Of a stretch of 37,408 nt of DNA, positions 3,271 to 33,652 are shown piece by piece. How positions within the stretch are numbered: position 1 is the first letter of the stretch; each line of letters starts with the position of its first letter. A program made the position numbers and the translations under genes. The notes beneath the pieces are model-generated. The model was not told where the DNA came from. It searched no databases and saw only the letters and a list, made by a program, of their open reading frames with translations. The DNA is from a virus: positions 1 to 37,408 of IMG/VR virus record IMGVR_UViG_3300042691_010121. One strand, written 5' to 3'.

Positions 3271-5813
3271 CCGCCAGCAACGCCGGCCGGGATGTAGCCG
3301 CGCACTTGCGCCTTGGGCGTAGCGTTGCGAGACGCCAGCCAGTCCGCGAACTCGTCGGCGTTCAGTTGCAGGATGCGCCCGAACTCGTCGCGCACTTCGA
3401 TTGGCACACCCGCCGTGCGGCTGTAGGCGAGCATCCGTGAAACACTGGTTCCGAGCGCGTCCAGCGTCCCGGCCATGAGCTGGCCTCGCCCAAACTTCCC
3501 GGCGATCCGCGCGGCGTCCCCGAAACTCTCCGCGCCCGCCGCGCCGAACTCATCGCCCGGAGATCCCGCTCCGGGCATCATCCGCCCGCCCGTGCGCGCC
3601 AGCCGGGCTTCGGCTTCCATCTTGGCGATGAAGCGTTGGGAGCCCTCACGTCCGAAGGCAATTTCCAGTTTCTGTGGCAGCCCAGGAACGGAGAACTTGC
3701 CGCCCTTGAGTTGGCCCCGGTTCGCCAGGTCCAGAACATCCGCCCCGATGGCCGCCTGAATCGCGCGCTTCTCAGCAGGCGTTTTCGCGCTCGCCACCAG
3801 CTTGGCGAAGTCCGCGACCTTGCCTTGCGTCAGCTTGCCTCGCGCCCGCTCAAACGCGCTCTGAATTTTCAAATAGTCGCCGCTTTCGGCCAATGCCTCA
3901 CGATAACCGGGGATGGCGCCGGGCCGGCTTTCATCACCCGCCAGCGCACGCCGCAGATCGGTCGCCACCGTCGCCAGGTCGCGGTTTCGGATGCCGACTT
4001 CGCCCGTGCCAATGACCTTGCCCGTCACCGGGTCGCGCTCGACCAGGCTGTCGAGAACCCTTTTGACCTGATCCCACGACCGGGCGGTCGGTTGCGCCTC
4101 TAGCGCAGGCTCCATGTCCGGCGCCGCCCGCCCAACGTACTGTTCCGGCGTCGGTAGGTCGGCAGGGTCGCCGCCGTAATACGCTATTTCTTCTGACGCC
4201 TCGCGCGCCGCAAACCGTTGCGCCGCACCCGGATCCGCTTCGCGTGCATAGGTCGGGCGCCCACGCATCTCGTCAGACAGCGCGTCTAGAAGCTGGTTTG
4301 CGGTCGGGCGGTCACGGTATTGTGGGAAATACCCAGCTTCCCATGCCCGAAGCGCCCACTCATCGGCGTCAGGCCCATTGCCGATTAGGCCCCGTTGGAA
4401 CGCCTTGCCCTTGTTCCAGTCTTGCCCCGCCATGGCGCCGACATCCCCGCCCGTGTCACGGATGCCGCCGCCGTCAGCAATGAACTTCGCCAGCGACTTA
4501 CCCCGAGACGGCGCCTTTGCCGGACCCCGAACCGGCGCCGTAGGGGGCGCGCCGAACGACGCCACCGAGCTATCAAAAGCGCCCGGCTGATCTACAAACG
4601 ACATCCCGAGGGCTTCAGTCGGTCGCCCAGCGTTCCGCGCGCTTTCCTCGGCCACACTAAACGCGCGCCGAACCGCCGGACGTTGCGCCAGTCCGGCGAG
4701 TTCATCGTTCCAGATTGGCGCGTCATCGCCTAGCGCGCGGTCATAGAGCGGCGCGGCGCGGCGGCGGCCCTGTTCAACCATCGACTCTATGTCGCCCGCC
4801 GCCCATTCCGGCATGACCCCAAGGTCGTCGGAGAAGTCATCCATGATACGTTGCGGGGCGCCCCGTTGGCGCTGGATCAGCAACGCCTCCAGATCGTCCG
4901 CCGTGTTGCCGTCGCGGCGAGCGGTCGCCGCCAGTTTGCTCACACCTTCACGGCCCATGATTTCCGCCGCCGTCACCGGCTTTCCGGCGAAGTCATCCGC
5001 CGCCATGGTCCGCACCGCATCCGGCGTCAGGCCCTTGCGAGAGGCCATTTCTTCGACCCTCGCCGCCGCAAGTTCGGCCTGTCGCGGTGTCGCCACCGGA
5101 CGAACGCCAGGCGGGGGCGGCCTGCGTGTCACAGCCCGCGTCACATCGCGCACCACGCCCGCGCCGCCGCTCACCAGAGGCGCGGCTGCGGACATACCGC
5201 CGTGCAGCACAGAGCCCGCCAGGAGACCACCGGGAACCGCCTTGAGGCCATCCCCCACGCGATCCATGCCTTCACTGTCAGCGGCGCCATAGGCCCCAGC
5301 GAACAAGCCACCCGCCGCCGCTGCCTTAACGTTGTTCTTGATGAACGACAGGACGCGGTTTCCCTCAGTCACCGCCGAGGCGATGACCTTTGCGCCCCTC
5401 ACCGGAGCCGCCGAAAAACCGCCCAGGAGCCCGCCAGCCGTCGTCGTGACCGGGTAGCGTTCCTGCCTACGATTCCGGCCCTCGTTGATGGCGTCCTTGT
5501 TGGCCAGATAGACCGCTTCGGAATCCCGCGCCGCATCCGCCGCGCTGTCACCCTGAAACGCGCGTGCGATGTAATTGCCGGTTGCCTTGATGCCGCCGAT
5601 CAGTTCGTCCATCACCGGAAGCGGTTCCGCAACCGCCGAGCGGAGCGCGTCGTATCGCCCGCCTCGCGTTTCGTGCGCGCGCTCGTTACGCTCCGCCTTG
5701 GCCTTCTCCCGCGCATAGGTGGCCGACTGACGCGGATTGGCCGGCGCACGCGGCTTTCCGCCGTCCGCCGCTCGGAACGTGCCGCCTTCTTCCAGTTGCC
5801 GGAACGTCCGCAT
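3243..5813 (-). CDS. Large internal virion (DNA ejection) protein (856 aa)
   Basis: This is the largest gene in the window, with an ATG that overlaps the preceding stop (TGATG). The N-terminal ~70 residues are very basic and rich in Arg, Ala and Glu. Two Gly/Ala-rich hydrophobic stretches follow (around residues 125-140 and 165-200, e.g. GGLLGGFSAAPV and AAAGGLFAGAYGAADSEGM), then long helical Ala/Arg/Glu-rich sequence to the C-terminus. Large, helical, glycine-punctuated proteins at this position in short-tailed phages are ejected with the DNA to form a channel across the envelope (P22 gp16/gp20-type or T7 gp16-type). I see no lysozyme-like Glu motif. It is not a tape measure because no other long-tail genes are present. 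The role is inferred from context. Confidence 0.65.
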   Translation of the reverse strand: MRTFRQLEEGGTFRAADGGKPRAPANPRQSATYAREKAKAERNERAHETRGGRYDALRSAVAEPLPVMDELIGGIKATGNYIARAFQGDSAADAARDSEAVYLANKDAINEGRNRRQERYPVTTTAGGLLGGFSAAPVRGAKVIASAVTEGNRVLSFIKNNVKAAAAGGLFAGAYGAADSEGMDRVGDGLKAVPGGLLAGSVLHGGMSAAAPLVSGGAGVVRDVTRAVTRRPPPPGVRPVATPRQAELAAARVEEMASRKGLTPDAVRTMAADDFAGKPVTAAEIMGREGVSKLAATARRDGNTADDLEALLIQRQRGAPQRIMDDFSDDLGVMPEWAAGDIESMVEQGRRRAAPLYDRALGDDAPIWNDELAGLAQRPAVRRAFSVAEESARNAGRPTEALGMSFVDQPGAFDSSVASFGAPPTAPVRGPAKAPSRGKSLAKFIADGGGIRDTGGDVGAMAGQDWNKGKAFQRGLIGNGPDADEWALRAWEAGYFPQYRDRPTANQLLDALSDEMRGRPTYAREADPGAAQRFAAREASEEIAYYGGDPADLPTPEQYVGRAAPDMEPALEAQPTARSWDQVKRVLDSLVERDPVTGKVIGTGEVGIRNRDLATVATDLRRALAGDESRPGAIPGYREALAESGDYLKIQSAFERARGKLTQGKVADFAKLVASAKTPAEKRAIQAAIGADVLDLANRGQLKGGKFSVPGLPQKLEIAFGREGSQRFIAKMEAEARLARTGGRMMPGAGSPGDEFGAAGAESFGDAARIAGKFGRGQLMAGTLDALGTSVSRMLAYSRTAGVPIEVRDEFGRILQLNADEFADWLASRNATPKAQVRGYIPAGVAGGQLVGMASE

Positions 5814-25228: not shown

Positions 25229-25677
25229 GCGGAGGCCGCCTCGCGGGCCTTGCGCATGACGTGGTACTCAGCCAACCGCGCCGCGTGCTTCTCCAGCCGA
25301 GGCGTCAGCTTGCCGTCCAGATGGGATTGCCACTTCTGGATAAGGTAGATCGCCGTGGTGTGATCCTTGCGGCCTAGACCGGCGGCAATCTGCGAGTAGG
25401 AGTAACGCCCGGTCTGGTGCATCACCCAGGCCGCTTCGGCTCGGGCCATGACGAGAGCGTGCCGGCGTGACGGTCCCCTCATTTCGGACGCGGTGAAGCC
25501 GTGGCGGTCGGCCACGGTTTGCACGATAGCCTTCTTACTTTCCGTGCGGTCGGTTATGAGGATCGACCCGCGCCAAAGCGACAGATAGGTCGGGGTGACT
25601 TCCGGCACGACAAGCCCGCGCCAGAGGGACAGGAGGTGCGCCCGGTTTTCGGGGTAAGTTTTGTGGGCGTGGCTCAT
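25225..25677 (-). CDS. DnaA domain-IV-like DNA-binding protein without ATPase (150 aa)
   Basis: Residues ~48-118 match the DnaA C-terminal domain: an initial helix (KKAIVQTVADRHGFTASEMR), then RRHALVMARAEAAWVMHQTG and YSYSQIAAGLG, then the signature GRKDHTTAIYLIQKW (DnaA proteins read G(G/R)(R/K)DH(T/S)TV). In DnaA this part reads DnaA boxes. The AAA+ domain and domains I-II are absent. Before it, residues 16-48 contain two tandem copies of LSLWRG. I chose the ATG on 25677 because it overlaps the GcrA-like stop (ATGA). It may occupy host DnaA boxes, regulate genes, or mark the phage origin. The homology is clear; the role is inferred. Confidence 0.82.
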   Translation of the reverse strand: MSHAHKTYPENRAHLLSLWRGLVVPEVTPTYLSLWRGSILITDRTESKKAIVQTVADRHGFTASEMRGPSRRHALVMARAEAAWVMHQTGRYSYSQIAAGLGRKDHTTAIYLIQKWQSHLDGKLTPRLEKHAARLAEYHVMRKAREAASA

Positions 25678-26297
25678 GCGGCTTTGTCCAGGCGTTGGAG
25701 GTCTTCCCGCGTGATGCCCGCGAACATGATCAACCGGCACGCGTGGCAGTAGGTCGCGCCGCCCGTGGGCTGAGCGCAGGAATAGGTGTCAGCCCCAGAG
25801 CCCGCGACAGGCCGGGCGCACTCACCAAAGGCGCGCTCGGTCCAGGGCTTCGCGCCAGGCGGAGGCGGGGTGTCCTCGATGACCGGCATGGGCGCCGCGC
25901 GCGGGCCATGCGGACGGGGAACCATCCACGTCGCCTTGCGTTTGGCGCGGGGGGCGTTCTGTTCGGCGTAGGGGCTCTTGGATTGAAGGCCCATGCGCTT
26001 CATGCGCTTGCGGACGGCGGCGTGGGAGACGCCTAGGACGATCCCGATTTGCCTCGAGGTGTATTGCGCATCGACCAGCCGGATCAGCGTGGCGACGTTC
26101 TCAGGGGTCCAGGGTGACGGGCGCCCGCCGATGTTCCGCCCTGTCGCCGCGCGCTGGAGGCCGAGGCGGCTGATCTTGCCGATCACGGCGTTGCGGGTGA
26201 GCGGCGGATGCTTCGCGGCAATCTCAGTCGCGGAAAGGCCCTCTTTCCAGAGAAGAGTGACTTGATCGGTTAGAGCTTGGTTGGCCCAGATGTTCAT
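25674..26297 (-). CDS. GcrA-like cell-cycle regulator with extra HTH (207 aa)
   Basis: The N-terminus (LTDQVTLLWKEGLSATEIAA, then TRNAVIGKISRLGL at 34-47) is nearly the same as the DNA-binding part of alphaproteobacterial GcrA, which ends in TRNAVIGKVHRLGL. The C-terminus has the GcrA-type Cys cluster (ECARPV at 159, SCAQP at 173, YCHAC at 183). In hosts, GcrA binds sigma-70 and methylated GANTC DNA to activate cell-cycle genes. Between these lies a second HTH (PWTPENVATLIRLVDAQYTS, then VSHAAVRKRMKRMGL), not part of standard GcrA. It overlaps the C5-methyltransferase and DnaA-like genes by ATGA. Late-gene activation or control of host methylation-dependent promoters is inferred. Confidence 0.85.
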   Translation of the reverse strand: MNIWANQALTDQVTLLWKEGLSATEIAAKHPPLTRNAVIGKISRLGLQRAATGRNIGGRPSPWTPENVATLIRLVDAQYTSRQIGIVLGVSHAAVRKRMKRMGLQSKSPYAEQNAPRAKRKATWMVPRPHGPRAAPMPVIEDTPPPPGAKPWTERAFGECARPVAGSGADTYSCAQPTGGATYCHACRLIMFAGITREDLQRLDKAA

Positions 26298-27091
26298 GCG
26301 GCCTCCGCTTGGAGAATGGCGCGGCCAATTAGCTCGGGGATTTGGGGGACGACGGCGTTGCCGAGGGCGCCTATTCGGGATTTGTCCAGCCCGGAGGGAA
26401 GCCCATCATTGCTTCCACATATGTCGGGCTCAACGGACCACCCCACACGTTCCAGGCTATGTCCGCCAGTTTCGCGTTTCCATCTATGTCCGAGCGGCGC
26501 GAGCGGATGCGATACGCTCCGCAGATTAGCGCCAAGGGGCGTTTGATCCCCAAAAACAATCCGTCCGACTTCTGTGGGGTAGGCAACCACCCACGCTCGT
26601 TGTCGCTCGTGGGGCAGTCCCACGGCGGCCGCGCGAATGTTCTGCCACTCTGCATCATACCCGAGTTCGGCCAGGTCTCCGAGAACTCGCCCAAACCATC
26701 CGCCTGGCCGCTCAGAAGGGCCTCTAAGCAGGTTTGCGACGTTCTCCACGAGAATGTACCGCGGTCGAATCTCGTCAGCCAATCGGACGATTTCGGACCA
26801 AAGCCCGCTCCTTGCGGCGCTAATTCCGCGCTGCGCGCCCGCCACGCTAAGGTCCTGGCACGGAAAACCCCCTGAGATGACGTCAACGGCAATTCCATCG
26901 GCAGCAAGGCGCTCTGCGGTGAGGGTTCTGACGTCATCGTAACAAGGCACCTCGGGCCAATGTTTCGCCAGCACGCGGCGGCAGAAGGGTTCGATCTCGC
27001 AGAAGGCGACGGTCTCAAAACCGCCCGTCCGCTCCAGCCCGAGCGAAAAGCCGCCGATGCCGGAAAACAGGTCTAGGACGCGGTACGTCAT
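26294..27091 (-). CDS. C5-cytosine DNA methyltransferase (265 aa)
   Basis: All main motifs are present: I, DLFSGIGGFSLGLE (7-20); IV, GGFPCQDLS with catalytic Cys78; VI, VENVANLL (ENV 116-118); VIII, ERQRAWVV; and X, RIGALGNAVVPQI near the end. The target-recognition region is short. Size is typical for phage C5 enzymes. It would methylate cytosine in a short site, protecting phage DNA from restriction or altering promoter recognition. No restriction enzyme lies next to it, so it is an orphan. It overlaps both neighbours by ATGA in an operon with a second methyltransferase. Confidence 0.9.
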   Translation of the reverse strand: MTYRVLDLFSGIGGFSLGLERTGGFETVAFCEIEPFCRRVLAKHWPEVPCYDDVRTLTAERLAADGIAVDVISGGFPCQDLSVAGAQRGISAARSGLWSEIVRLADEIRPRYILVENVANLLRGPSERPGGWFGRVLGDLAELGYDAEWQNIRAAAVGLPHERQRAWVVAYPTEVGRIVFGDQTPLGANLRSVSHPLAPLGHRWKRETGGHSLERVGWSVEPDICGSNDGLPSGLDKSRIGALGNAVVPQIPELIGRAILQAEAA

Positions 27092-27255
27092 GCCCCCGCC
27101 CCCGGCGCTCGGTTCGTGGCCTCACGAGCGGCCTTGAAGGTCGCGTGCTGCTTTCGGGTGTCGCCCCCACGGATGGCGGCTTGAAGCTCGGCAACGGCCT
27201 TGGCGCGTTCGGCGCGTATGGCTTTGCGTTGGAAGTAGCGGAGGATGCGGATCAT
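27088..27255 (-). CDS. Small basic protein between the two methyltransferases (55 aa)
   Basis: This ATG-to-TGA frame exactly fills the space between two methyltransferase genes, with ATGA overlaps at both ends. The product is basic and helical (MIRILRYFQRKAIRAERAKA, then VAELQAAIRGGDTRKQHATF). The exact double overlap strongly supports a real gene. No family is recognised. It might be a small partner of one of the enzymes. Confidence 0.65.
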   Translation of the reverse strand: MIRILRYFQRKAIRAERAKAVAELQAAIRGGDTRKQHATFKAAREATNRAPGAGA

Positions 27256-28154
27256 GCGGCTACCGTGTCGAATAGCTGCGGCGTCTCGCCAGCGGCCTCC
27301 GCCTCGGAGACGTTCTTGACCGCTTGGCGGAAGTAGGCGGGCTTCAATTCCGAACCAACAAACCGACGCCCGGCCTTGATCGCCGTCCAGCCCTCGGAGC
27401 CGATGCCCATGAACGGCGAGAACACCGTATCGCCAGGGTTAGACCAAAGCCGAATGGCGCGCTCGATCAGGTCAAGCTGCAGCGGGCAAAGGTGGCGCTC
27501 GTCTTTTTCCTCGCGCGCGACTTTGACGTTGAGGACGTTGGTCTGCTGGATGTCCATCCAGACCGGCGAGGCCCATTGCTGCCAAAGCGAGACGGGGAAG
27601 TTGCGCGCGTCGTGGCCTACCTTGTCGGCGTCCTTCTCGTCATCCGGCGTCTTGCGGAACACCATGACGTAATCCGCCATGCCCTGACGGTTGCGCGTCG
27701 CGTCGGTCTGAATCTGCTTGTAGAGAAGCCCCAGCGCCTTGGTGCGCTGCATCTCCACGACGGGGTCTTTCCACACGGTGATGCGGCTATGAAACGTCCA
27801 GCCGGCTTCCTCGTGCACCTGCCGAATGTCGCTCGGAAAGTCGTAAAGCCCGATCACCCCGTGCGCCGTTTTCGTGCGCGGGAGGTCCGAGCAATGGACC
27901 GCCGTCAACCGGCCCGGCTTGGTGATGCGCAGTTTCTCGCGGACCAAAAACGAATAGAGCCGGCGAAACTCCGCCTCGTCGGCCACGTTGCCCATGTCGC
28001 GCTCGCTGTCCGAATAGACGAACAGTTGCGCGAACGGCGGGGAGTAAACCGAAAACCCGACGCTGTTGTCGGGGAGCGTCGATGCAAACTCCACACAATC
28101 GGCGTTGACGATGTAAAAGCCGCGCCCGGTGGCGCTGTCGAGAACGTGGCTCAT
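27252..28154 (-). CDS. Beta-class DNA amino-methyltransferase (N4-cytosine or N6-adenine), ~300 aa
   Basis: The catalytic motif IV (YSPPFAQLF, near residue 40) comes first and the AdoMet-binding motif I (DTVFSPFMGIGSEG) near the C-terminus, the order of beta-class enzymes. The closing GRRFVGSELKPAYFRQAV is the usual motif X-like end. SPPF rather than DPPY leans toward N4-cytosine but does not exclude N6-adenine. Two starts fit: ATG on 28154, overlapping the helicase stop (ATGA), which I prefer; and ATG on 28169, five codons longer. No restriction partner is next to it. It probably guards phage DNA or alters methylation-dependent control with the C5 enzyme and GcrA-like protein. It lacks the DPPY motif of CcrM, so it is not a CcrM copy. 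Confidence 0.87.
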   Translation of the reverse strand: MSHVLDSATGRGFYIVNADCVEFASTLPDNSVGFSVYSPPFAQLFVYSDSERDMGNVADEAEFRRLYSFLVREKLRITKPGRLTAVHCSDLPRTKTAHGVIGLYDFPSDIRQVHEEAGWTFHSRITVWKDPVVEMQRTKALGLLYKQIQTDATRNRQGMADYVMVFRKTPDDEKDADKVGHDARNFPVSLWQQWASPVWMDIQQTNVLNVKVAREEKDERHLCPLQLDLIERAIRLWSNPGDTVFSPFMGIGSEGWTAIKAGRRFVGSELKPAYFRQAVKNVSEAEAAGETPQLFDTVAA

Positions 28155-29632
28155 GCTGCGGTCATCCATGATGGGAGCTGGACCGGGGCGGTCGGCTCAT
28201 AAGGAGATTGTTCGTGTTCAATTCGGACGGCGCGGCGCATGGCCGCCGTCATCTCGCGCTTCATGGCGTCGTGGTCGCCGCTCTTGCGGTTCACGACTTG
28301 CCAGATGCTTTCCTCCGTGTCGGCGCACGCCACATGGACGCTGACCGGGCGCGTCTGCCCAAACCTCCAGCACCGCCGGATTGCCTGATAGAACGCCTCG
28401 TAAGAGAACGAGAGCCCGACAAAGGCCATCCTGGCGCAATGCTGCCAGTTGAGCCCGAAACCGGCCAAGGACGGCTTGGTAATCAGGATGCGAGCCTGAC
28501 CTGTCGAGAACGCGGTGAGGCGTTCCTCTTTCTGGTCCGCCGTCATCGACCCGCGAACCTCTATGGCGCCAGGGATGCGGGCAACGAGCGCGTCCGCCTC
28601 ATAGTCAGTGTCGCACCAGATGACCCAAGGCTCGCCGGGCTCCCGCGCGACAATCTCCGCGATCAGGTCGGCGCGCGCCTCAATGGTCATACGCTTCTCA
28701 CGGTGGATCGACGTGGCGGACGTGTCGGGGATGCGGAACAGCCGTCCCTGCCCGTCCTTTTCGGCGCCGCTGTCCAGCGACCGATCAGCCTTCACAACGT
28801 GGCGCTCGAGATTGAGCGGCGGAAGCGCAAAGCCATCGTCCGAAAACCCTAGATCCGATGGCTTGGAAACGCAGCGCGCCCATGACGCCACCCATGACCA
28901 GAAGTCGCGGACGGCATGACCCTTCATGCGCCATGTGCCGGTGTCGGCGCTGTCGTGAATGAACCAGCGCGTCAGCATTTGGGATGCCGAGAGCGTGCCT
29001 AGAAAGTCGGAGTGTTGGCCTAGCTCGGAATGGTCGTTGGGCGCGGGCGTGGCGGTGCAGGCCAGACGGAAGCGCGTGTCTGAGAACGCCTGAATAAGCG
29101 ACTTGGACGTGCGCCCGTTCATGCTTTTCAGGATGCTGGATTCATCCAGGATCACCCCGCCAAACGCGGACGGATCAAACTTGTCCAGTCGATCATAATT
29201 GGTGATGTAGACGCGCGGCGTGGTGATCTGGTCGGGCTCACGAATGGCCCGCGCGTCGATCCCAAACTTCTCCGCTTCGCGCTGGTGTTGGGCCGCCACG
29301 GCGAGCGGCGCCAGCATCAAAACCGGCTCGTTCGTGTGTTCGACGACGATGCGGCCCCAATCAAGCGCGCAAAGGCTCTTACCTAGTCCAGTGTCCAGAA
29401 AGAGCGCTGTCCGCCCGCCCCGCAATGCGAAGTCGGTGACTGACGCCTGATGCGGGAACATGGCGGGGTTGAGGTCGGGGACGCGGGTTAGGCCAACGGT
29501 AGGCGTGGCAATGCGTTTCGCGGCGACCGCGCTGCGGTAAGCATCAATGCCGCAATTGGTCGGGGCGCGGTGGGGAGAGGGACACCGCGCCCCTGTCGCG
29601 CTGGCAATGGGCTTGCCTTGCGCGGGTTTCAT
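28151..29632 (-). CDS. SNF2-like superfamily II helicase/ATPase (493 aa)
   Basis: Motifs appear in order: FPHQASVTDFALRGGRTALF (Q-like start, ~59), motif I LDTGLGKSLCALDW (GLGKS at 82-86), motif II ILDESSILKS (DESS 163-166), motif III CTATPAPND (~192), and motif VI IRRCWRFGQTRPV near residue 430. The DESS box and RxGQ motif VI place it with SNF2-type enzymes often found in temperate phages close to replication genes. It probably remodels protein-DNA complexes or opens DNA at the origin. I chose the ATG on 29632 (MKPAQGKPIA) because it overlaps the HTH-gene stop (ATGA). The first ~55 residues have no recognised domain. Confidence 0.85.
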   Translation of the reverse strand: MKPAQGKPIASATGARCPSPHRAPTNCGIDAYRSAVAAKRIATPTVGLTRVPDLNPAMFPHQASVTDFALRGGRTALFLDTGLGKSLCALDWGRIVVEHTNEPVLMLAPLAVAAQHQREAEKFGIDARAIREPDQITTPRVYITNYDRLDKFDPSAFGGVILDESSILKSMNGRTSKSLIQAFSDTRFRLACTATPAPNDHSELGQHSDFLGTLSASQMLTRWFIHDSADTGTWRMKGHAVRDFWSWVASWARCVSKPSDLGFSDDGFALPPLNLERHVVKADRSLDSGAEKDGQGRLFRIPDTSATSIHREKRMTIEARADLIAEIVAREPGEPWVIWCDTDYEADALVARIPGAIEVRGSMTADQKEERLTAFSTGQARILITKPSLAGFGLNWQHCARMAFVGLSFSYEAFYQAIRRCWRFGQTRPVSVHVACADTEESIWQVVNRKSGDHDAMKREMTAAMRRAVRIEHEQSPYEPTAPVQLPSWMTAA

Positions 29633-31313: not shown

Positions 31314-32006
31314 ATGTTCGCTCAATCCGAAAACATCGCCGCACTGTCCGCTTCACTCGCCAAGGCCCAAGGCCAGATCGAGGGCGCCGTGAAGGGGAAA
31401 GAGAACCCGCACTTCAAGTCGAAGTACGCCGACCTTTCCGCCGTGTGGGAAGCCTGCCGGGAAGCCCTCACCACCAACGGTCTCGCCGTGATCCAATCTC
31501 CCGGCCCGATTGCCGAGGGGCGGTTGGAGATGACCACGATGCTGGTTCATTCGTCCGGCGAGTGGATCAGGGGCGCGCTCACCATCCCGCTCGGCAAAGT
31601 GGACGCCCAGGCTTACGGGTCCGCCGTGACCTACGCCCGCCGCTATGCGCTGGCGGCTTTCGTCGGGGTGTCGCCCGAGGATGACGACGGGAACGCCGCT
31701 GCCAAGGCCGCACCGAAGCGGGCGGAGATTGTTCCGACCGATGGCCGCAAGTCAGCCGCCCAAGCCAAGCGCGACGGTGATGACGTCAAGATCAAGGCAT
31801 CGATTGCCGAGGCGGATCGGGCGGGCTTGCGGGATTGGCACGAGAACTTCGACGCCTACACCGCACACGTCCCGTTCTCTTGGCTCGATAGCGTGCGGGA
31901 CATGATGCATGACCGCCTAGCCGATCTGGACGGCGCGGAAGCCGTTGCCGACGCCGAGCGGGAGATGGACGACGGGTTTGCCGGCGCCATCGGGCGGGCC
32001 GCGTGA
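31314..32006 (+). CDS. erf: ERF-type single-strand annealing recombinase (230 aa)
   Basis: The N-terminal domain follows the ERF family pattern: SENIAALSASLAKAQGQIEG, then NPHFKSKYADLSAVWEACRE, then LTTNGLAVIQSP, and GKVDAQAYGSAVTYARRYAL, AAFVGV. ERF proteins anneal complementary single strands in phage recombination and genome circularisation. The C-terminus is charged and less conserved, as is usual (IGRAA end). It is encoded directly ahead of a NinB-like gene, overlapping by GTGA, so the pair form a recombination unit. No exonuclease partner is visible in the window. Confidence 0.88.
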   Translation: MFAQSENIAALSASLAKAQGQIEGAVKGKENPHFKSKYADLSAVWEACREALTTNGLAVIQSPGPIAEGRLEMTTMLVHSSGEWIRGALTIPLGKVDAQAYGSAVTYARRYALAAFVGVSPEDDDGNAAAKAAPKRAEIVPTDGRKSAAQAKRDGDDVKIKASIAEADRAGLRDWHENFDAYTAHVPFSWLDSVRDMMHDRLADLDGAEAVADAEREMDDGFAGAIGRAA

Positions 32007-32452
32007 GCCGCTTCCTGACCGCCTTGAACACGCCCCATCAACGGGCGGTTGCTCGCCGGGCCATAGACAAGGCCCCCGAGGGCTACGTCTGCGAGGTCCG
32101 GGAGGCCAAGCGGTCGGACCCTCAGAACTCCGCCATGTGGTCACTGCTAGGCCAGATTGCCAAGCAACGTCCCACGCACAACGGCGCCCGCATGACGCCG
32201 GAGCTATGGAAGGCGGTGTTCTTGCAGGCCCTCGGGTCCGAGATGGTCATGATGCCGACGCTGGACGGCGACGGGTTCTTCCCGCTCGGCCATCGGTCTA
32301 GCGCCCTGACGAAGGGTGAGATGGCGGACCTGATTACGCTGATCCTGGCCTGGACGGCGAGGGAGGGCCTGACGATCCGCCACTTCGATGAGTTTTCACC
32401 AGCGGCCCAGGAGCCGGGAGGGGTTAACAGCCCCTCCCGAGTGGCCGCGTGA
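32003..32452 (+). CDS. ninB: NinB-like recombination protein (149 aa)
   Basis: The protein shows the NinB pattern: KAPEGYVCEVREAKRSDPQN, then SAMWSLLGQIAKQ, then MTPELWKAVFLQALGSEM and SSALTKGEMADLITLILAWT. Lambda NinB (Orf) binds single-strand DNA and supports recombination, replacing RecFOR. The start is a GTG overlapping the ERF stop (GTGA), which supports coupled expression. Length is normal for the family. The C-terminal tail is Pro/Ala-rich and probably flexible. Confidence 0.88.
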   Translation: MSRFLTALNTPHQRAVARRAIDKAPEGYVCEVREAKRSDPQNSAMWSLLGQIAKQRPTHNGARMTPELWKAVFLQALGSEMVMMPTLDGDGFFPLGHRSSALTKGEMADLITLILAWTAREGLTIRHFDEFSPAAQEPGGVNSPSRVAA

Positions 32453-32754
32453 CCCAATCGCTCACCGGGGCGGGCTGGTACTTCTCCGCGTCTCACCGCG
32501 ACCCGATCCGCCAGGAGTTGCACGGCCACTCTTACGAGGTCACCGCCTACTGGCCCTCGGAACCGCCGCGCGATGCGATGGTCCTGCAATGGACCTTGCG
32601 CGACGTGTTGAAGGGCTTCGACCATGTGACGCTGCCCGACGAATTGTCGCGCGCTGAGAACCTCGCCCGCGCCATCGGGTCACTGATCGACGGATGCGTC
32701 CGCGTGGACATCGCCCGCCCTTCGGAGCGCCTGCGGTGTGAGGTCTGGCTGTGA
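32449..32754 (+). CDS. Mini QueD/PTPS-like protein lacking the catalytic Cys (101 aa)
   Basis: The sequence aligns well with QueD (6-carboxytetrahydropterin synthase): YFSASHR (FxAAHR in QueD, His16), LHGHSYEV (His25, His27), KGFDHVTLP (LDHHYLN, Asp58-His59), and SRAENLARAIGSLI (PTSExLAKWI). The three His that hold zinc are kept. The catalytic Cys four residues before HGH in QueD is Arg here, and the C-terminal Glu of the VKET motif is not evident, so activity is doubtful. It may be a pterin-binding relative. It overlaps the NinB stop (GTGA) and is two genes before a DpdA-like gene. Confidence 0.75.
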   Translation: MTQSLTGAGWYFSASHRDPIRQELHGHSYEVTAYWPSEPPRDAMVLQWTLRDVLKGFDHVTLPDELSRAENLARAIGSLIDGCVRVDIARPSERLRCEVWL

Positions 32755-32930
32755 AGTACGTCATCGCCGTCACCAACCGACACACGGACACCGAACTTTT
32801 TGGTCCTTACGACTCCGAAGCCGATGCTCAATCCGTGATTCAGGCTTCGTGGGAAGCACTGTGGGATTTAGCCGATGAAGACGGGAGTGTGGAGGTATTT
32901 CCGCTCCAAGACCCTGGGTCTTGGCGGTGA
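32751..32930 (+). CDS. Small acidic protein (59 aa) between QueD-like and DpdA-like genes
   Basis: The GTG start overlaps the QueD-like stop (GTGA), and the TGA on 32928-32930 overlaps the next start (TGATG). The product (MKYVIAVTNRHTDTELFGPY, then DSEADAQSVIQASWEALWDL) is a mixed alpha-beta domain rich in Asp, Ala and Trp. No family is recognised. Its last codons hold the 19-base palindrome just before the DpdA-like gene. The double overlap supports a real gene. Confidence 0.6.
   Translation: MKYVIAVTNRHTDTELFGPYDSEADAQSVIQASWEALWDLADEDGSVEVFPLQDPGSWR
32906..32924. repeat. Perfect 19-base inverted repeat before the DpdA-like start
   Basis: CCAAGACCC and GGGTCTTGG flank one T. In DNA it is a perfect palindrome for a dimeric binding protein; in RNA it can form an eight-pair stem with a three-base loop five bases before the DpdA-like ATG, covering the ribosome site region. 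It lies inside the coding end of the 59-aa gene, so it may control the DpdA-like gene alone. Confidence 0.7.
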
Positions 32931-33652
32931 TGACGATTTGCTATCACGGAACGCCGATCACGCCGCAAAGCGCGCTGTTGAAGCTCGCCGGGCGACACTT
33001 CTGCGTTTCGTATTTCAACCGGACAAAGACCAGCCTTCCGCTGATCGAAGGCATCGCGTCCAGCCTCATGCTCGATAACGGCGCGTTCTCGGCATGGCAG
33101 GCGGGCGTTGATCTTAGCGATGCCTACTGGTCCGGCTATTTCGATTGGTGCGACCCGCTGCTGGACCGCCCGACGACGTGGGCCGTCATCCCTGACGCCA
33201 TCGCCTCGGGAACCCAGGAGCAAGACCGCCTCATCCGGCTATGGCCGCACGGCGACCGGGGAGCGCCCGTCTACCATCTGACCGAAGACTTCATGCAGCC
33301 GCTGTCTCGGCTGGTGAGGCTTACCCAAGAGTGGCCGCGCGTCTGCATTGGATGGGCGCACCCGCCGTCAACGCACCCGATCAACGGGGCTGCGTTTGAG
33401 CGCGCGATGGATGCGCTCTGGAACGAGCTGGCGCGGCATCATCGCCGGACGCCGGTCGTCCATATGTTCCGGGGGATGCAGCTAGTCCGGTCTCGGTGGC
33501 CGTTTGCGTCGGTGGACTCGACCGACGTGGCCCGCAATCACAACCGGCCTCAAAACACCCCCGAGGCTATGGCCGCCCGTTGGGATGCGGCGCAATGCCC
33601 GGCGCGATGGGAACCGGCGCCCGAACCCATGTTGCTGGAGTTTGTCGCATGA
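32930..33652 (+). CDS. TGT/DpdA-like deazaguanine transglycosylase candidate (240 aa)
   Basis: Motifs follow tRNA-guanine transglycosylase order: LMLDNGAFSAW (Asp49; TGT has DSGGFQ), WAVIPDAI (PD 88-89), VYHLTED, RVCIGWAH (TGT GGLAVGE region), then HMFRGMQL and FASVDSTDVARN, where Asp196 may be the nucleophile (TGT has FDCVxPTR). The TGT zinc site (CxCxxC) is not visible. DpdA proteins are TGT relatives that place 7-deazaguanines in DNA. I chose the ATG on 32930, overlapping the previous stop (TGATG). Family membership is by pattern only; another TIM-barrel nucleobase enzyme is possible. The QueD-like neighbour supports deazaguanine work. Confidence 0.68.
   Translation: MTICYHGTPITPQSALLKLAGRHFCVSYFNRTKTSLPLIEGIASSLMLDNGAFSAWQAGVDLSDAYWSGYFDWCDPLLDRPTTWAVIPDAIASGTQEQDRLIRLWPHGDRGAPVYHLTEDFMQPLSRLVRLTQEWPRVCIGWAHPPSTHPINGAAFERAMDALWNELARHHRRTPVVHMFRGMQLVRSRWPFASVDSTDVARNHNRPQNTPEAMAARWDAAQCPARWEPAPEPMLLEFVA

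Follow-up and report, generated by a model that had tools for sequence, protein, structure and literature searches.

Full-pathway DpdA phages, such as 9g and CAjan, carry the transglycosylase DpdA, which inserts a 7-deazaguanine base into DNA, beside a gene of the QueD family. Phage 9g encodes FolE, a canonical QueD (CRHLHGH), QueE, and Gat-QueC. The locus described here shares with these phages DpdA homology, a QueD-family neighbor and, presumably, insertion of the base into DNA, but of the biosynthetic enzymes it encodes only an altered QueD. The singleton DpdA phages, group 3 of Hutinet et al. 2019 (7-11; MED16, SEN1, SW9), possess by BLAST a transglycosylase of the same family as ours and, like the cassette presented below, no phage-encoded FolE or QueC. 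Whereas they were described with DpdA alone, our locus adds a QueD-like neighbor. LC-MS of 7-11 virion DNA revealed dADG (7-amido-7-deazaguanine) at approximately 0.02% of G, and no modified base was found in Orion, another singleton-DpdA phage (PMC6884629). The DNA of MED16, the DpdA of which is 55% identical to that of SEN1/SW9, also carries dADG (PMC8306585).

Layout of the locus

The window, that is the whole 37.4 kb stretch of viral DNA which was analyzed, contains P22-like portal and capsid genes. Downstream of erf and ninB is a tightly overlapping run of three genes (Table 1), of which the QueD-like and TGT-like ORFs lie where an earlier note on this sequence had placed them. For the TGT-like gene the ATG is a more likely start than the upstream TTG, because it overlaps the preceding stop codon (TGATG) in the manner seen in relatives. 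Comparison of the window with six relatives indicates that both genes are under purifying selection (dN/dS ~0.02-0.12).

Table 1. Positions of the genes discussed within the 37.4 kb window.
Feature	Positions	Strand	Remarks
GcrA-like protein (PF07750)	25674-26297	-	
C5-cytosine methyltransferase (PF00145)	26294-27091	-	
N6/N4 methyltransferase (PF01555)	27252-28169	-	
erf	31314-32006		upstream of ninB
ninB	32003-32452		stop overlapped by the GTG start of the QueD-like gene
QueD-like (COG0720/PTPS, T-fold), 101 aa	32449-32754	+	GTG start
59-aa ORF	32751-32930	+	between the QueD-like and TGT-like genes, this window only
Short DpdA-like guanine transglycosylase (phrog_887), ~240 aa	32930-33652	+	ORF also opens at TTG 32921

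In the window the TGT-like gene is indeed found two genes after the start of the run, as previously noted, with approximately 176 bp containing the 59-aa ORF separating it from the QueD-like gene; in close relatives, however, the two genes abut, the stop codon of the QueD-like gene directly overlapping the ATG of the TGT-like one (TGATG), and the three-gene order was not encountered in other phages. The suggestion that the 59-aa gene is a new member of the unit has therefore been abandoned: it has no relatives in viral contigs, is missing from the operon of every relative, and gave no convincing match in family searches. Having no viral relatives and occurring in this window only, the ORF does not belong to the conserved unit. 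In contig L005 an HNH gene (4591-5010) occupies the QueD/DpdA junction, which is also the site of the 59-aa ORF in the window; insertions may therefore recur at this point.

Neither Rfam families nor tRNA genes were found in the window, and it gave no match to the PADLOC defense models. Two additional DNA modification genes, both encoding methyltransferases, are present (Table 1), and the phage may for this reason use several layers of DNA modification. The GcrA-like protein belongs to a type of regulator characteristic of Alphaproteobacteria, which hints that the host is a member of this class.

The short DpdA-like transglycosylase

The TGT-like protein matched phrog_887 ("queuine tRNA-ribosyltransferase") with an E-value of 1.7e-39, and its relatives are encoded in at least 590 viral stretches. 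A profile of 61 sequences aligned with phage 9g DpdA over 152 columns (hhalign P 1.3e-6), where the next-best of 23 9g proteins gave 0.007 and thirty shuffled sequences 0.04 or worse; against the E. coli tRNA TGT it gave P 0.34, which is no match. Analysis by tblastn linked the protein to the DpdAs of Salmonella phage 7-11 (E 5e-13), SEN1 (E 5e-19), and SW9. We place the transglycosylase in the singleton-DpdA group of Hutinet et al. (PMC6884629), an established subfamily to which it adds one more member. A Pfam search recovered no family at E-values up to 10, the DpdA family PF23859 included, and we therefore refer to the protein as DpdA-like and not simply as DpdA. PF23859 matches the DpdA of another locus (L068) and may describe a different DpdA subfamily. 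Searches of the PDB, with the single sequence and with the profile, produced nothing meaningful.

The AlphaFold model (pLDDT 94.5) is a TGT barrel, to which Cap10 (Z 15.3) and the TGTs (Z 14.8) are tied as fold matches. Counting residues from 32921, the candidate catalytic aspartates are D52 (60/61 members), D92 (61/61), and D199 (60/61), while H9, N53, P91, D92, P116, H119, G144, H181, and R184 are invariant. The TGT motifs recognized earlier are thus upheld with respect to the fold and the conserved Asp residues, but not with respect to "GWAH," which is mostly GSTAE in the relatives with only the G invariant. The protein ends approximately 40 residues past D199, and no CxCxxC corresponding to the C-terminal zinc motif of tRNA TGTs (CxCxxC...H) is found in it.

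This last feature bears on the proposal that the short DpdA is a tRNA-modifying TGT, and that during infection the cassette increases or changes the queuosine of the host's tRNA. The TGT fold of the model and the queuosine-pathway neighbors QueE and YhhQ (see below) would suit such a role, which we nevertheless consider improbable: the zinc motif is absent, the profile comparison fits DpdA and not E. coli TGT, and the virion DNA of relatives carries dADG (PMC6884629, PMC8306585).

The best Foldseek match was 9NTN (E 5.7e-5), which is Cap10 of type IV CBASS with a bound deazaguanylated protein. Cap10 is a TGT-family protein remodeled to bind a deazaguanylated N-terminus (PMC11996544) and, as the nearest solved fold, raises the prospect that our transglycosylase has deazaguanine, either free or bound to protein, as its substrate and counteracts defense systems which attach deazaguanine to proteins (Cap9/Cap10 of type IV CBASS, and possibly Qat), with the QueD-like protein serving as a pathway sink or decoy. 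The top rank of Cap10 may, however, have been gained by default, since no phage DpdA is among the solved matches, and Cap10 was not detected in the PDB by the short-DpdA sequence profile. The short DpdA, moreover, keeps its catalytic aspartates, the window has no QueC/Cap9 homolog to act as the partner, and YhhQ, the alternative neighbor in other phages, is a transporter and ill-suited to the role of sink. There is in our opinion little chance that a counter-defense function of this kind is correct. DNA modification is the best reading of the transglycosylase, preferred because of its homology to 9g DpdA and its BLAST kinship with the DpdA of 7-11.

Two observations on the wider family may be added. 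In 19 loci (e.g., L140 5756-6004, L135, and L147), some of which also have YhhQ, the gene directly next to the short DpdA encodes a protein of 80-90 residues (phrog_37496; CPNNG...HHHGVDIET), which is a possible further partner. The 1.7 kb record OR850331.1, labeled "Staphylococcus phage," contains a DpdA resembling the one in Salmonella phage BTP1 and is probably mislabeled or contaminated.

The QueD-like protein

The 101-residue protein matched the PTPS family PF01242 just over the cut-off (E 8e-5), and scored 19.2 bits against the NCBIfam QueD model TIGR03367, far under its cut-off of 89.25. Its AlphaFold model (pLDDT 95.9) has the QueD/PTPS fold, with Z scores of 13.8 to 2DJ6 and 12.9 to E. 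coli QueD. A PDB search with the single sequence found nothing meaningful; a profile search with the family found QueD. Both models therefore confirm the folds, QueD/PTPS and TGT, which the earlier note had expected, and not other ones.

QueD is defined by the catalytic cysteine of the motif CxxxHGH (PMC5041015). With QueD/PTPS proteins (COG0720) the QueD-like family shares the T-fold, the three zinc histidines and, in most members, the Asp-His dyad. The histidines, which had been noticed together with the HGH triplet, are invariant (H16, H25, and H27; 29/29 diverse members), and remain so at sequence identities down to ~25-30%. The family differs from QueD in that the cysteine is missing from all 29 members, its position being occupied by R, E, D, G, H, and other residues, none of them conserved, and in that the loop which bears it is shortened, with 9 residues from H16 to H25 versus 15 in E. 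coli QueD. Also invariant are E70 and R90. The latter ends the penultimate strand of the model (residues 85-90) and, by strand register, would take the place of the pterin-anchoring Glu110 of E. coli QueD. The PTPS-III motif ExxHGH is not present in the window protein, which reads RQELHGH, the Glu being one place too late. The Asp-His dyad is kept in 25-26 of the 29 members. It has been lost from those of L100 (5696-6007), L102 (5699-6007), and L110 (5684-6007), where HWH, HVH, or HEH stands in place of HGH; these three still adjoin DpdA.

Because the cysteine is gone family-wide and, by strand register, the glutamate appears to be as well, the protein cannot be assigned to the normal QueD step toward preQ0, as had been proposed. 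It could still be a working 6-carboxytetrahydropterin synthase that performs an unorthodox CPH4 synthesis through some other residue, boosting host flux such that DpdA inserts preQ0 or a derivative. We regard this as possible but doubtful. A canonical QueD holds the place of the QueD-like gene in locus L014, QueE, the next enzyme of the pathway, adjoins in six loci, the Asp-His dyad is mostly kept, and in four QueC-bearing Sphingomonadales genomes the sole PF01242 protein found is likewise devoid of the cysteine; yet the cysteine is absent from all 29 members with no substitute residue conserved at its position, an Arg apparently replaces the anchoring Glu, three members have lost even the dyad, and the score (19 vs 89 bits) is far beneath the QueD cut-off.

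The loss of the QueD catalytic residues and the lack of FolE and QueC in 32 contigs would also fit a gene which is left over from a once complete preQ0 pathway, is decaying, and has no present function. This is very improbable given the strong purifying selection on the QueD-like gene (dN/dS 0.04-0.12), the invariance of its zinc site across such divergent sequences, and its retention beside three DpdA families.

Among Sphingomonadales (G038-G063, L165-L168), QueC was present in 24/24 genomes, and 13/23 had no PF01242 (QueD) match; in four genomes the sole COG0720 protein is without the catalytic Cys and has an Arg in the same region. QueD is thus possibly missing or altered in these bacteria and, because of the similar Cys loss and Arg, the QueD-like branch may be of bacterial origin. 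CGPG_00067 of Cellulophaga phage phiST (L160 46838-47185, minus strand) is a 115-residue protein with an HxH motif, encoded beside FolE, QueE, and QueD. Comparison with the QueD-like profile gave P 0.044 versus 0.22 or worse for 20 shuffles, and a distant kinship with the family is conceivable.

Linkage to DpdA and the proposed cassette

Searches employing QueD only, in which DpdA was not used, yielded 17 non-redundant QueD-like genes, and a DpdA/TGT-family gene lies within 3 kb of every one of them (17/17). This is the phrog_887 DpdA at 14 loci and a protein of another family at three (L064, L068, and L071), such that at least three families are involved overall; no phrog_887 gene exists in the whole contigs of the latter. 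At L068 the QueD-like gene adjoins a PF23859 DpdA, and at L064 (5387-6001) and L071 (4638-5381) a phrog_15826 protein with the motifs DNGGF/DSGCF and APD. This PHROG is of unknown function, although others have annotated its members as DpdA-like in actinophages. Profile comparison gave no significant match between the L064 and L071 proteins and the short DpdA; the order of the motifs and the annotation by others indicate that phrog_15826 is probably another DpdA subfamily. The QueD-like family is tied to DpdA. Chance similarity of the gene pair was considered and is ruled out by the folds, the shuffle-controlled profiles, and the conserved pairing. The pair is also present in an isolated phage for which there is a laboratory host, Caulobacter phage DMCA on C. 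vibrioides CB15.

QueE (7-carboxy-7-deazaguanine synthase) adjoins in L071, L119, and L124 (TIGR04508, over cut-off) and was detected by profile in L070, L112, and L128 as well, giving six loci in all. FolE and QueC were found neither in the window nor in any of 32 contigs, and therefore host enzymes, or a pathway stopping at CDG, are needed. The earlier note had listed FolE, QueE, and QueC as missing from the window; this is correct for FolE and QueC, and in the case of QueE nothing resembling it is among the window ORFs listed. Its central idea, a short deazaguanine unit of DpdA-type and QueD-family proteins which relies on the host, is supported by the folds, homology, and linkage.

In many other phages the short DpdA adjoins YhhQ/DUF165, a queuosine-precursor transporter family; examples include Pam5, Rhizobium phages N3_2 and X2_30, and coliphage Sadiya. 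Among 54 loci found via DpdA, 15 have the QueD-like gene, 17 have YhhQ, and none has both (Fisher p 0.001, a significance inflated because kinship is ignored; a set thinned to 60% redundancy has too few loci for this test). A second DpdA-centered set of 80 loci, partly overlapping the first, contains five with the QueD-like gene, 64 with YhhQ, and again none with both. On the DpdA tree the partner switches at least seven times, and even the sister pair L070/L120 differ. Since shared descent inflates the Fisher significance, the repeated switching carries more weight. We read the QueD-like protein and YhhQ as interchangeable supply modules because they are never found together and are swapped among close DpdA kin.

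On balance we think it probable, with some reservation, that the locus is a minimal 7-deazaguanine DNA-modification cassette, in which a neighboring gene supplies or tailors the base for DpdA. The short DpdA-like protein would put a 7-deazaguanine base in place of some of the guanines of the phage DNA, as its homology to DpdA proteins and its intact catalytic aspartates lead us to infer; that DNA is the substrate, the base a deazaguanine, and the neighbor a supplier is likewise inferred. The supply module would be the QueD-like protein in the window phage, YhhQ in most related phages, and the QueD-like protein plus QueE in a few; the remaining steps would fall to FolE and QueC of the host and, in most cases, to its QueE. 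The benefit would be phage DNA shielded from restriction. As the published singleton-DpdA phages carry little or no modified base, the modification may have little effect, or the enzyme may in reality act on another substrate.

Because the QueD catalytic residues have been lost, and in L100, L102, and L110 the Asp-His dyad with them, supplying the base is no more than a putative role for the QueD-like protein. It might act on, or hand over, a later or different intermediate, such as CDG made by QueE, and our tentative preference, held at less than even confidence, is that it tailors or hands over the base. Loss of the Cys and, apparently, of the anchor Glu, retention of the zinc site, and the invariant Arg make a later intermediate somewhat likelier than standard CPH4 synthesis, and action on CDG would explain both the pocket Arg and the occurrence of QueE without QueC. 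The unorthodox QueD discussed above is nearly as likely, since a canonical QueD sits in the same place in L014. That the protein is instead a binding partner of DpdA we hold to be unlikely.

A 2023 paper on phage deazaguanines reportedly proposed a CDG decarboxylase, DpdL. Our literature search for DpdL found nothing relevant, and the protein is a possible equivalent of the QueD-like family and the main threat to its novelty. In the literature examined we found no description of a catalytically altered QueD that is dedicated to DpdA, or of its swap with YhhQ. It is conceivable, though we would not press the point, that the Cys-less, Arg-bearing QueD relatives represent a new T-fold family that serves DpdA systems specifically, either turning a 7-deazaguanine intermediate (e.g., CDG from QueE) into a base outside the current list of phage deazaguanines or passing the base directly to DpdA.

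Whatever its activity, this branch of COG0720 is annotated as 6-carboxytetrahydropterin synthase though it does not have the residues by which that activity is defined. Lone-DpdA phages have hitherto been puzzling, in that neither the source of the base nor any activity of the enzyme was explained. The coupling of the short DpdA to either a transporter or a QueD-derived protein, and never to both, points to a supply route which can be tested.
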